From NCBI GenBank assembly GCA_029557215.1, contig JAKPQQ010000182.1, positions 1-38,075 on the forward strand: 38,075 nt of DNA. The letters run 5' to 3'. The first letter of the stretch is position 1, and each line of letters begins with the position of its first letter. The notes below the pieces were generated by a model. The model was not told the DNA's origin. It ran no database searches and saw nothing but the letters and a program-made list of their open reading frames with translations. Position numbers and translations under genes: made by a program. Positions 15,497-20,788 of the stretch are shown piece by piece. This DNA comes from Fibrobacterota bacterium (GTDB lineage: Bacteria > Fibrobacterota > Fibrobacteria > UBA5070).

Positions 15497-16570
15497 TTAG
15501 GCCGCTCCCGAACCCGAACCCTCGGCGAGGTTGAACTCCTCCATCAGGTTCGCCTTGCCGCTCTGCATCACCCGCGTCACCAGGGTCTGGCCGCAGGTGC
15601 CGCAGAAGTGGAACGTGGGCGGGTTCGACTTCCCGCACCGGGGGCAGGCCACCTTTTCCGTGGACGAGTCCGAAGCCGAATCGAGCACGGTCAAGCGGCG
15701 CTTGAATTCGGCGGTCGACGGAATCCGTCGGTCGGGGTGTTCTTCCAGCGCCATGAGCAGGGTCTGGCGCAACTCGATGGGGATCCGCTCCGGGTACAGG
15801 TGCCGCGGACGTTCGCCGGTGAGCATCTGGTAGGCGGTGGCCGCCAACCCGAACACGTCGGCGCGACCGTCCACGTTGGTGGCCGACACCCTCTGTTCGG
15901 GGGCCATGAAGTCGACGGTGCCCAGCACCGATCCCACCGCGGTGCTGTCGGATTCCGGTTCGTGGGCCAAGCCGAAGTCCACCAGCTTGGGGACGCCGCC
16001 GGTGGTCAGCAGGATGTTGGCCGGCTTGATGTCGCGGTGGATGATCCCGCGATCGTGCGCCAGCGACAGCGCGTCGCAGATCTGGCTCAGGATGGGCACG
16101 ATCTCGGCCACCGAGTAGGGCCCCTTGGCGCGCAGGTGCTCCAGCACGCTCTGGCCGTCGACGAACTCCATCACGATGTAGATGCCGGTTTCGTCCTGCT
16201 CCAGTTCGTAGATCTGCACGATGTTGTAGTGCGAAAGCTGCGCGATGGATCTCGCTTCGCGCAGGAACCGGTGCAGCACCGTGGAGCTCTTCATGTACTT
16301 GGCCAGGATCCGCTTGATGGCCACCTTGCGGTTCAGGCGGCTGTCGCGGGCCGACCACACTTCGCCCATGCCCCCTTTGCCGATCATGACCAGTTCCTTG
16401 TACCGGTCGGCGTTGCGCGGCTTGGGCGGGACCGGTGGAAGCTCCGGGGTGGCGCGCGGTTCGGAATTGGCCAGCTGCTGGAGCGAGCCCGACACGCGTT
16501 CGCCGCAGAACATGCAGTAGGTGGAATCGCCGTCGATGCGGCGGTGGCAGAAGGGACAGACCATCTTCAT
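15497..16570 (-). CDS. Ser/Thr protein kinase with terminal zinc ribbons
   Basis: 357 residues. A four-Cys zinc ribbon (C5, C8, C19, C22) begins the protein. The kinase domain (about 57-295) has all catalytic residues: glycine loop GKGGMGEV (64-71), VAIK with K86, HRDIKPANILL with D180, DFG (198-200) and APE (223-225), so it should be active (PknB-like family). A second four-Cys ribbon (C309, C312, C323, C326) follows, then a Gly/Ser/Ala tail. There is no membrane segment or PASTA repeat, unlike many wall-linked bacterial kinases, so it is cytosolic. It lies 58 bases downstream of the pseudokinase gene on the same strand, probably one operon with pbpC. ATG 16570 or 16564 could start it. Confidence 0.93.
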   Translation of the reverse strand: MKMVCPFCHRRIDGDSTYCMFCGERVSGSLQQLANSEPRATPELPPVPPKPRNADRYKELVMIGKGGMGEVWSARDSRLNRKVAIKRILAKYMKSSTVLHRFLREARSIAQLSHYNIVQIYELEQDETGIYIVMEFVDGQSVLEHLRAKGPYSVAEIVPILSQICDALSLAHDRGIIHRDIKPANILLTTGGVPKLVDFGLAHEPESDSTAVGSVLGTVDFMAPEQRVSATNVDGRADVFGLAATAYQMLTGERPRHLYPERIPIELRQTLLMALEEHPDRRIPSTAEFKRRLTVLDSASDSSTEKVACPRCGKSNPPTFHFCGTCGQTLVTRVMQSGKANLMEEFNLAEGSGSGAA

Positions 16571-16628
16571 CGCGGACCCCTCTCGGGTGCGAGGCTCGAT
16601 GCGGCCGGGTTCGGTGCGGATCTCTGGG

Positions 16629-18287: not shown

Positions 18288-20788
18288 AGGCTTCCCATTG
18301 TGCCCATTTTTGGCGGCGCTGGCAAAGAAGATCGTGAAATGAGTTTTCCAGAGTGCTCGACCCTGAATTCGGATCGGACCGTTTCACCCAGGTCGTCGGA
18401 GCAGGTCAAGGTGTGCGGACCGACCTCCGGGCGGAACGACCAGGACCGGAAACGATCGTTTCGCCCAAGGTCGCGCTGGTCCAGAAAACACCGGATCACC
18501 GCCTCGGGCAACCGGTGCCGCACCTCGGCCACCATGTTCTGGGGGGTCCCGGTCAGATCGATGGGCAGGGTGAGGCTTGATCCGTTTTCGGGGAGCAGGA
18601 TCTCCATGTTGGCCACCTTGGGCAGGTCCTTGCAGTCCGATCGCGGAGATGGCAACCGGGGAAGCAGACCCGGGTGGACCGATTCCATGTAGCTGGCGGC
18701 GCCCGGTGGCGGGACCAGGAGGGTATCCAGCCGGTGGGAAAAGGTGGGCTCGCACCCGGCGTCCACCTGGAACCCCGCCGAATCCAGATGGAAGACGCGA
18801 TGGTAGGGGTCGGGCGGAGCCGATCGGGCGGCGGCGGGGGCCAGGTCGACCGTGCCGCTCGGGCACAGGGATGAACGCTTCCAGCGGGTGTCGGGGCACA
18901 CCTCGATGCCTACCAGGTCGGTGGGAGCCTGGAACCAGGACCGGTTGTCCAGAGCCAGCAGGGGAAGGGTTCGGAACAGGAGCGGGGCCGCCGCGCTCGA
19001 TCCCCACAAATGGGGGCGTCCGTCGCCCATGGGGTTCCCCGCCCAGACACCCACCACCCAACGCGGGGTGACGCCGATCGCCCAGGCGTCGCGGTGGCCA
19101 AAACTGGTTCCGGTCTTCCAGGCCACCGGGCGGGATCCGGCCCAGGCCTTCCAGGCGGCCTCCTCCTCCGATCGTCCGGGCAGCCGCAACGCTTCCAGAA
19201 CCAGCCAGTTCGCTCCGGGAGACAAGATCCGGCGGAATTGTTCGTCGGGCGACGTGGCCAGGAACGCCTTGTGGGCGGCGCGAAGGCTTCCCGTGGCCCC
19301 GCCGCCCGCGGGTGGCCCCGCGATCCGCGAGGGCTCGCCTTCGCGCGAGCGGCCGATGTCCAGAGGTCGCGAGATCCCGTTGGAGCCCAGCGCCGCGTAG
19401 AGCGCCACCAGTTCGGCCAACGACGCCTCGCCCGCGCCCAGCGCCAGAGCCAGGCCGTAGTCGTCGGCGGGCCGGAACAGATGCCACAAACCGGCATCGC
19501 GCAGGAACGCGTGGAACGGCTCCACCCCCAGCTCCCGCAGCTGCCGCACCCACGGGACGTTCAGGGAGCGGGCCAGCGCCGCGTTGGCCGGAACCAATCC
19601 TTCCCAGACTCCCGAAGCGTTCTGGGGACGGAAATCGCCGTAGCGGGTGGGAACGTCCAGCAGCCATTGTTTGGGCAGGATCCGTCCCTGGTCCAGCAGC
19701 TGTCCGTACAGGAACGGTTTGAGGGTGCTCCCCGTCGATCGCGGCGCGAGCGCCAGATCCACGTGGCTTCCGTCTTCGCCGTCCTGGATCCCGCCGATCC
19801 AGGCGCGCACCACCGGAGCCGATCCGTCCTCGGGGAGTTCGCACACGATCACGCCCAGGCCCTTGATTCCCTGCGAGAGCAAATCCTGTCGGTGCTCGCG
19901 GGCCAGGAGGGACAGCGACCTCTGGAGGTTCAGGTCGATCCCGGTGGCCCACCGTCTTCCCGGGCCTTGCGATTTGAGCAGCTCCAGAAGGTGCGGAGTC
20001 TCGCGCGGAAGCGCCTTGGGAGACCGCGGGAGCGGTTCGGCGTCGGCCAGGGAACGTCCCATGGAATCCATCTCGCCTTGTCGGGCCAGGGTGGACAGGA
20101 TCCAGGCCCTCCGTTCGCGCAAGGCGTCCTTGTCGCCCTGCGGGCGCAGGCGGTGCGGAGCCTTGGGAATCGCCGCGAGGGCGGCGGCTTCGCCCCACGA
20201 CAGTTCGGCGGGGCTCTTGCCGTACCATCGCCAGCTGGCGGCCTCCAGACCCACCACGTTCCCGCCGAACGGGGCGTGGGCGCAGTACAGCGCCAGGATC
20301 TCGTCCTTGGACAGCGCAAGCTCCAGGCGCAGGGCCAGCCAGGTTTCCAGGAGCTTGGCCGTCCAGCCGCGTTCGGTGGCGGCGCCGCGCGCCTTGCGCG
20401 ACAGGCGCGCCAGCTGCATCGTGATGGTGGACGCGCCCTGCCTCCCGGCCGGGCTCGACAGATTGTGCCGCAACGCGCGGACCACCGCGACGGGGTCCAC
20501 GCCCGGATGCCACCGGAACCGCCGGTCTTCGGCGGCCAGGATCGCCTTGCGGAATCGCTCAGGTACCGAATCCCCGCGCGGGAACCTCCATTGTCCGTCG
20601 CCGCCCGCAGACGCGCCCAGCAGATCGCCGTCGCGGTCGAACGCGGCGGTGGAATGCAGCGACGGCACGATCGGCGACGGGAGCGTGTACCGGATCGCGA
20701 GCCACGTCGCGGCAAGGCACAGGACGACCACGAGGACGCGCAGGGAGGCATGGTGGATTCCTGGTGGCCGCCGCATCTGGGAATCCAC
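18284..20788 (-). CDS. pbpC: Penicillin-binding protein 1C
   Basis: Bifunctional peptidoglycan synthase (GT51 transglycosylase plus transpeptidase), anchored by one N-terminal membrane helix. The transglycosylase shows AAEDRRFRWHPGVDP and GASTITMQLAR. The transpeptidase has SxxK (STGSTLKPF), SxN (SLN) and KTGTS. The C-terminus (NMEILLPENGSSLTLPIDLT onward) is the PBP1C-specific domain. GTG 20788 is chosen because AAGGG lies seven bases upstream, giving 834 residues; TTG 20815 and ATG 20776 are alternatives. Many bacteria encode an alpha-2-macroglobulin next to pbpC; here none is present. Instead its stop overlaps the start of a pseudokinase. It is divergent from the STN gene. Confidence 0.95.
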   Translation of the reverse strand: MDSQMRRPPGIHHASLRVLVVVLCLAATWLAIRYTLPSPIVPSLHSTAAFDRDGDLLGASAGGDGQWRFPRGDSVPERFRKAILAAEDRRFRWHPGVDPVAVVRALRHNLSSPAGRQGASTITMQLARLSRKARGAATERGWTAKLLETWLALRLELALSKDEILALYCAHAPFGGNVVGLEAASWRWYGKSPAELSWGEAAALAAIPKAPHRLRPQGDKDALRERRAWILSTLARQGEMDSMGRSLADAEPLPRSPKALPRETPHLLELLKSQGPGRRWATGIDLNLQRSLSLLAREHRQDLLSQGIKGLGVIVCELPEDGSAPVVRAWIGGIQDGEDGSHVDLALAPRSTGSTLKPFLYGQLLDQGRILPKQWLLDVPTRYGDFRPQNASGVWEGLVPANAALARSLNVPWVRQLRELGVEPFHAFLRDAGLWHLFRPADDYGLALALGAGEASLAELVALYAALGSNGISRPLDIGRSREGEPSRIAGPPAGGGATGSLRAAHKAFLATSPDEQFRRILSPGANWLVLEALRLPGRSEEEAAWKAWAGSRPVAWKTGTSFGHRDAWAIGVTPRWVVGVWAGNPMGDGRPHLWGSSAAAPLLFRTLPLLALDNRSWFQAPTDLVGIEVCPDTRWKRSSLCPSGTVDLAPAAARSAPPDPYHRVFHLDSAGFQVDAGCEPTFSHRLDTLLVPPPGAASYMESVHPGLLPRLPSPRSDCKDLPKVANMEILLPENGSSLTLPIDLTGTPQNMVAEVRHRLPEAVIRCFLDQRDLGRNDRFRSWSFRPEVGPHTLTCSDDLGETVRSEFRVEHSGKLISRSSLPAPPKMGTMGSL

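Follow-up and report, generated by a model that had tools for sequence, protein, structure and literature searches.

A zinc-ribbon pseudokinase and kinase encoded behind pbpC in a Fibrobacterota genome: a candidate control of the peptidoglycan synthase PBP1C

The pbpC operon

The window analysed here is a whole stretch of 38,075 nucleotides (contig JAKPQQ010000182.1, assembly GCA_029557215.1) from a Fibrobacterota bacterium. Three genes follow each other on its minus strand: pbpC (20815-18284), a pseudokinase gene (18287-16629), and the gene of an intact Ser/Thr kinase (16570-15497). The features of the locus are as follows.

18284..20815, minus strand: pbpC, bifunctional peptidoglycan synthase PBP1C, 843 aa from TTG 20815 (TIGR02073, Transgly, Transpeptidase and BiPBP_C profiles, motifs, N-terminal anchor)
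18284..18287, minus strand: GTGA stop/start overlap of pbpC and the pseudokinase gene (sequence; also at locus L039 of the sister genome)
16629..18287, minus strand: zinc-ribbon pseudokinase, 552 aa (Pfam Pkinase and DZR, lost residues, predicted fold)
16567..16632, minus strand: 21-codon frame between pseudokinase and kinase (sequence reading)
15497..16570, minus strand: active zinc-ribbon Ser/Thr kinase, 357 aa, without the alphaG segment (Pfam Pkinase, catalytic residues, Asp-Arg spacing)
14705..15475, plus strand: convergent gene bounding the operon, function not assigned (kept in the sister genome, where it adjoins ftsH)

The pbpC stop codon at 18284 and the pseudokinase GTG start at 18287 share the four bases GTGA, and 58 bases separate the pseudokinase stop (16629) from the kinase ATG (16570). 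A sequence-only reading of this DNA had proposed this four-base overlap with the kinase 58 bases further on, and coordinates, order and strand are all confirmed in the sequence. The 21-codon frame lying in the 58-base gap overlaps both the pseudokinase stop and the kinase start through ATGA, and may be a putative re-initiation bridge. The operon is flanked on both sides by plus-strand genes, one beginning at 20873 and the other being the convergent gene at 14705-15475.

The first product belongs to the PBP1C family, with 558.5 bits against the curated equivalog model TIGR02073 (cut-off 494.2). Profile searches find its Transgly and Transpeptidase domains and a BiPBP_C tail, and the glycosyltransferase and transpeptidase motifs (EDRRF, GAST, STLK, SLN, KTG) are intact. 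An N-terminal membrane anchor, with a maximum 19-residue hydropathy of 2.27, leaves a cytosolic tail of about 25 residues at most. The start codon is uncertain (TTG 20815 or ATG 20776), and the tail would shrink to about 12 residues if the ATG is used. It gives no convincing alignment between the two species of the genus. At the other end of the protein, PBP1C terminates in a KMGTMG tail in both species (18284-18330; L039:12840-12890), directly before the pseudokinase overlap. This ending is missing from the other PBP1Cs of the phylum, and may reflect constraint on the pseudokinase start region.

Elsewhere in the window, a 502-codon frame (22729-24237, minus strand) has no family matches and a third-position GC of 0.475, against 0.73-0.90 in its neighbours; it may be of foreign origin or, in that frame, not a gene. 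A type I restriction-modification cluster (26004-34587, plus strand) adjoins a tRNA-Arg gene (25709-25783), and looks like a defence island:

26004-28103, plus strand: HsdM
28100-29437, plus strand: HsdS
29434-30918, plus strand: Schlafen/AlbA-RecG-like protein
31342-34587, plus strand: HsdR

A degenerate kinase and its intact neighbour

Two Pfam profiles match the pseudokinase above cut-off, Pkinase with 39.7 bits and DZR with 36.4. Its architecture includes a ribbon (residues 9-26), a dead kinase domain (approximately 54-287), a double ribbon (297-342) and a helical C-terminus (approximately 349-551). Alignment shows that VAIK has become VLIR, HRD has become HGN and DFG has become SFV; the loss of all three catalytic positions, already claimed from the letters alone, is thus confirmed and extends further. 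The Gly-rich loop has disappeared; Ala replaces the alphaC Glu, Thr the HRDxK Lys and Arg the metal-binding Asn, and the activation segment is shortened. The dead domain is nevertheless a kinase fold as predicted by AlphaFold, with blocks of residues 51-290 at pLDDT 77-97 and the degenerate activation segment at about 62, and a fold search returns PknB kinase domains as the closest PDB structures. With this predicted fold and without the VAIK Lys, HRD Asp and DFG Asp, the protein is a pseudokinase by sequence. Its C-terminus is predicted to be all-helical, at low confidence (pLDDT 51 when the region is modelled alone).

The neighbouring kinase keeps every catalytic motif, as had been claimed: GKGGMG, VAIK (K86), Glu105, HRDIKPAN, DFG and APE are all present in the alignment. 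It scores 163.7 bits against Pfam Pkinase, which gives it the signature of a Hanks-type Ser/Thr kinase. A ribbon (5-22) precedes its kinase domain (approximately 54-295), and another (309-326) follows it. The five ribbons of the two proteins, three in the pseudokinase (cysteines 9/12/23/26, 297/300/311/314 and 325/328/339/342) and two in the kinase (5/8/19/22 and 309/312/323/326), are all spaced C-x2-C-x10-C-x2-C, and Pfam zinc-ribbon profiles match both proteins above cut-off. The count of four-Cys ribbons made from the sequence alone therefore stands.

Both proteins appear to be soluble. Hydropathy reveals no membrane helix in either (19-residue maxima of 1.40 for the pseudokinase and 1.41 for the kinase, versus 2.27 for the PBP1C anchor), and profile searches find no PASTA repeats, in agreement with the sequence-only reading. 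The score against the PASTA-kinase model NF033483 is far below its cut-off, and on all three counts the kinase falls outside the PknB/Stk1/StkP group.

How did a dead and a live kinase come to lie side by side? The genome holds 13 Pkinase matches, the pair included, and the full sequences of the 11 others contain no CxxC ribbons. The distance from the alphaF Asp to the alphaI Arg is 43/44 residues in the pair, 63-64 in 13 kinases of relatives, and 62-68 in six other kinases of the same genome. The missing stretch of about 20 residues corresponds to the alphaG region, and is absent from no other kinase measured. After itself, the best match of the pseudokinase in the genome is the neighbouring kinase (4e-32; next 1.5e-16). 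Because the alphaG deletion is shared by these two only, and because ribbons stand at both ends of both kinase domains and are missing from the 11 other kinases, the two genes most likely arose by tandem duplication, after which one copy lost catalysis. Kinase-domain trees group the pair weakly in a trimmed set (78/33) and do not group it in a wider one; they are not decisive, since the pseudokinase branch is very long. The ancestor would have been a cytosolic zinc-ribbon Ser/Thr kinase without an alphaG helix. After its tandem duplication, one copy would have stayed catalytic, while the other, which carries one ribbon more and extends into a helical C-terminus, would have lost all its catalytic residues.

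The loss of all catalytic residues could also mark a decaying duplicate without function, but this is very improbable. The frame runs full-length over 552 codons with a coding-like third-position GC of 0.84, the predicted kinase fold and three intact ribbons are kept, and the changes seen in the sister species are mostly synonymous (see below). The operon as a whole is probably functional.

Distribution in the genus and beyond

Conservation within the genus was assessed in one other genome (G001). On its contig C103, pbpC (74% identity) again overlaps the pseudokinase gene by GTGA, and the first 37 codons of the latter can be read before the contig ends. Of these codons, 14 differ between the two species, 11 synonymously and three non-synonymously, and the first ribbon retains all four cysteines. 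The recurrence of the overlap and of these 37 codons argues that the arrangement is not due to chance. The other flank, consisting of the convergent gene and ftsH, opens a separate contig (C598), so the assembly breaks within the pseudokinase/kinase stretch. Over pbpC and the 37 codons that the comparison covers, nothing contradicts the same gene order in the sister genome. In a separate observation, made by eye, both genomes of the genus encode an apparent fusion of a PP2C-type phosphatase and a Ser/Thr kinase with a C-terminal hydrophobic helix:

L237:1480-3147 (G000:C145): apparent PP2C-kinase protein of this genome
L238:740-2872 (G001:C479): apparent PP2C-kinase protein of the sister genome

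Across the phylum, 168 genomes were surveyed, and PBP1C was found in 45. The surroundings of pbpC were taken from 42 of the 43 PBP1C genomes outside the genus (G077 being left out), in 46 stretches, some of them cut by contig ends. None of these stretches contains a zinc-ribbon kinase. The only kinases near pbpC in them are unrelated: one at L206, one at L217, and one in G012 at a distance of about 20 kb. Those of L206 and L217 were rejected as counterparts, lacking ribbons and being convergent or kilobases off. Also rejected were the 350- and 505-residue kinases of most relatives as orthologues (no ribbons, C-terminal hydrophobic segments, not adjoining pbpC), and the anti-phage kinase families PADLOC PD-T4-6 and mad6, whose matches are limited to the kinase fold. 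Over the 168 genomes, the C-terminal 260 residues of the pseudokinase match this genome only, and the C-terminal part of the kinase matches this genome and, marginally, the ribbon in a membrane kinase of G022 that is not related to it. Beyond the phylum, GTDB contigs were scanned with a PBP1C alignment, which yielded at least 590 confirmed relatives, and no kinase resembling either protein lies near the best 80 of them, mostly from Bacteroidota, within up to 9 kb on each side.

As the order is missing across the phylum and at these outside loci, the pbpC-pseudokinase-kinase arrangement is, as far as these sequences make visible, confined to one genus: a genus-level innovation, and no widespread module. 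The sequence-only reading had proposed a cytosolic module controlling a peptidoglycan synthase, to be sought by co-occurrence in other genomes and endangered if its gene order were unique to this one. The dead kinase, the live kinase, the ribbons, the cytosolic nature and the pbpC operon all hold, and the pbpC-pseudokinase junction recurs in the sister genome. The generality does not hold: the order was found neither elsewhere in the phylum nor at the 80 further loci, and comes close to being unique.

What lies beside pbpC elsewhere is different. In at least 23 of the 46 stretches there is a large CxEQ frame, mostly adjoining pbpC, which by its size and thioester motif is a putative alpha-2-macroglobulin; a2m-pbpC is a known unit (PMC5764988). 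In this genome, alpha-2-macroglobulin is on another contig than pbpC (G000:C259:8236-8475).

Possible roles of the pair and comparison with known systems

Kinase control of wall synthesis has precedents. In mycobacteria, the class A PBP PonA1 is phosphorylated by PknB on its cytosolic tail, which slows elongation; this tail is likewise called unconserved (PMC4483258). In MviN/MurJ, PknB phosphorylates the pseudokinase, which recruits FhaA and holds back the synthesis of peptidoglycan (PMC6180346, PMC12599244). In PknG, a soluble kinase is combined with a rubredoxin-like domain and a TPR scaffold (PMC8546545), showing that metal-binding and helical scaffold modules can steer such an enzyme. From the PonA1/PknB and MviN cases, control of PBP1C by the kinase pair is plausible by analogy.

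Our preferred reading, held tentatively and at somewhat below an even chance, is that the duplicated kinase and pseudokinase form a complex docked on PBP1C or on a partner of it, which would set how the wall is built or repaired. The two copies, which are produced together and encoded in tight coupling with pbpC, would most likely assemble with each other, with the ribbons and the helical tail as surfaces for contact or for sensing zinc or redox state. Docking on PBP1C at the membrane, or on its partner, would fall to the pseudokinase, and the kinase would phosphorylate either the short cytosolic tail of PBP1C or that partner. A more specific version, less likely than not, is a dedicated cytosolic unit that would set the activity of the class A enzyme PBP1C: through the ribbons, the dead duplicate would activate and aim the alphaG-less kinase, without any wall-sensing receptor domain. 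Speaking against direct control, the tail of about 12-25 residues is the only part of PBP1C within reach, and it aligns poorly between the two species.

For the same reason, shared expression alone remains a serious rival, and a quite possible one: the pair would be co-transcribed with pbpC, for example from an envelope-stress promoter, and act on other cytosolic targets. The link between these kinases and pbpC in one genus only fits this explanation, as do the unconserved PBP1C tail and the fact that pbpC has switched neighbours, its frequent phylum partner alpha-2-macroglobulin here being on another contig. A GTGA overlap kept in two species is however tighter than loose co-transcription requires. 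It is also conceivable, though unlikely, that the main substrate of the kinase is the pseudokinase itself, whose tail-phosphorylated form would recruit or release a regulator of wall synthesis, PBP1C staying unphosphorylated. This is how the MviN pseudokinase operates together with PknB and FhaA, and the C-terminal region here is predicted to be helical; yet that prediction is of low confidence, and the operon has no gene for an FHA-domain protein or other phospho-reader.

Ser/Thr kinases controlling the wall are known mainly as PASTA receptors, to which the complex on PBP1C would, if true, be a soluble alternative. It would also be a rare bacterial case of a pseudokinase and its still-active tandem sister beside a plausible target. 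The pair would also allow one to examine how a kinase is regulated when it lacks alphaG, a helix through which other kinases make protein contacts. The narrow distribution limits its general weight.

The literature on zinc-ribbon pseudokinases and on Fibrobacter kinases in wall synthesis yielded nothing relevant. A 2025 review counts seven annotated families of bacterial pseudokinases, five with all three motifs degraded; its text mentions neither zinc nor PBPs, and the family sections consulted contain no such architecture. The pseudokinase was compared by description, and not by family profile, with two of them, ActPs1 and ActPs3. ActPs1, from actinobacteria, shares the three degraded motifs, and about 60% of its members lack the G-helix; it is however mainly actinobacterial, unlike the present host, and often carries a PQQ-type domain, whereas here the active sister kinase also lacks alphaG. 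MviN/MurJ of Mycobacterium tuberculosis (ActPs3 family) shares a degraded Ser/Thr kinase domain, a peptidoglycan link and an active Hanks-type partner. There, however, the pseudokinase forms one protein with a flippase and the partner PknB is a PASTA protein of the membrane, while here separate soluble zinc-ribbon proteins are linked to a PBP. ActPs3 members are characterised by constraints in the active site and dimer face and by a deletion in the activation loop; the pseudokinase here has a shortened activation segment, but its best fold matches are PknB kinase domains.

PknG, from actinobacteria, is likewise a soluble kinase; it bears a metal-binding module at its N-terminus and a helical scaffold at its C-terminus, the latter predicted here in the pseudokinase. 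Unlike this pair, it has rubredoxin and TPRs, acts on GarA/OdhI in metabolism, and has neither a kinase/pseudokinase pairing nor a PBP link. The present proteins fall outside the PknG family: their ribbons are of other Pfam types, the TPR_19 match of the pseudokinase is weak and sub-threshold, and the operon differs from glnX/glnH. As in the a2m-pbpC operon, a conserved two-gene periplasmic repair/defence unit common in the same phylum, pbpC belongs to a gene set, but here a kinase pair takes the place of the adjoining a2m. Another parallel to the proposed control is PonA1/PknB of mycobacteria, where a Ser/Thr kinase controls a class A PBP that has a tail in the cytosol. That kinase, however, is a PASTA receptor in the membrane and acts without a pseudokinase, and PBP1C is of another subfamily with a very short tail. 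If its link to PBP1C is real, the operon would add a new form of control to the wall-linked kinase/pseudokinase systems.
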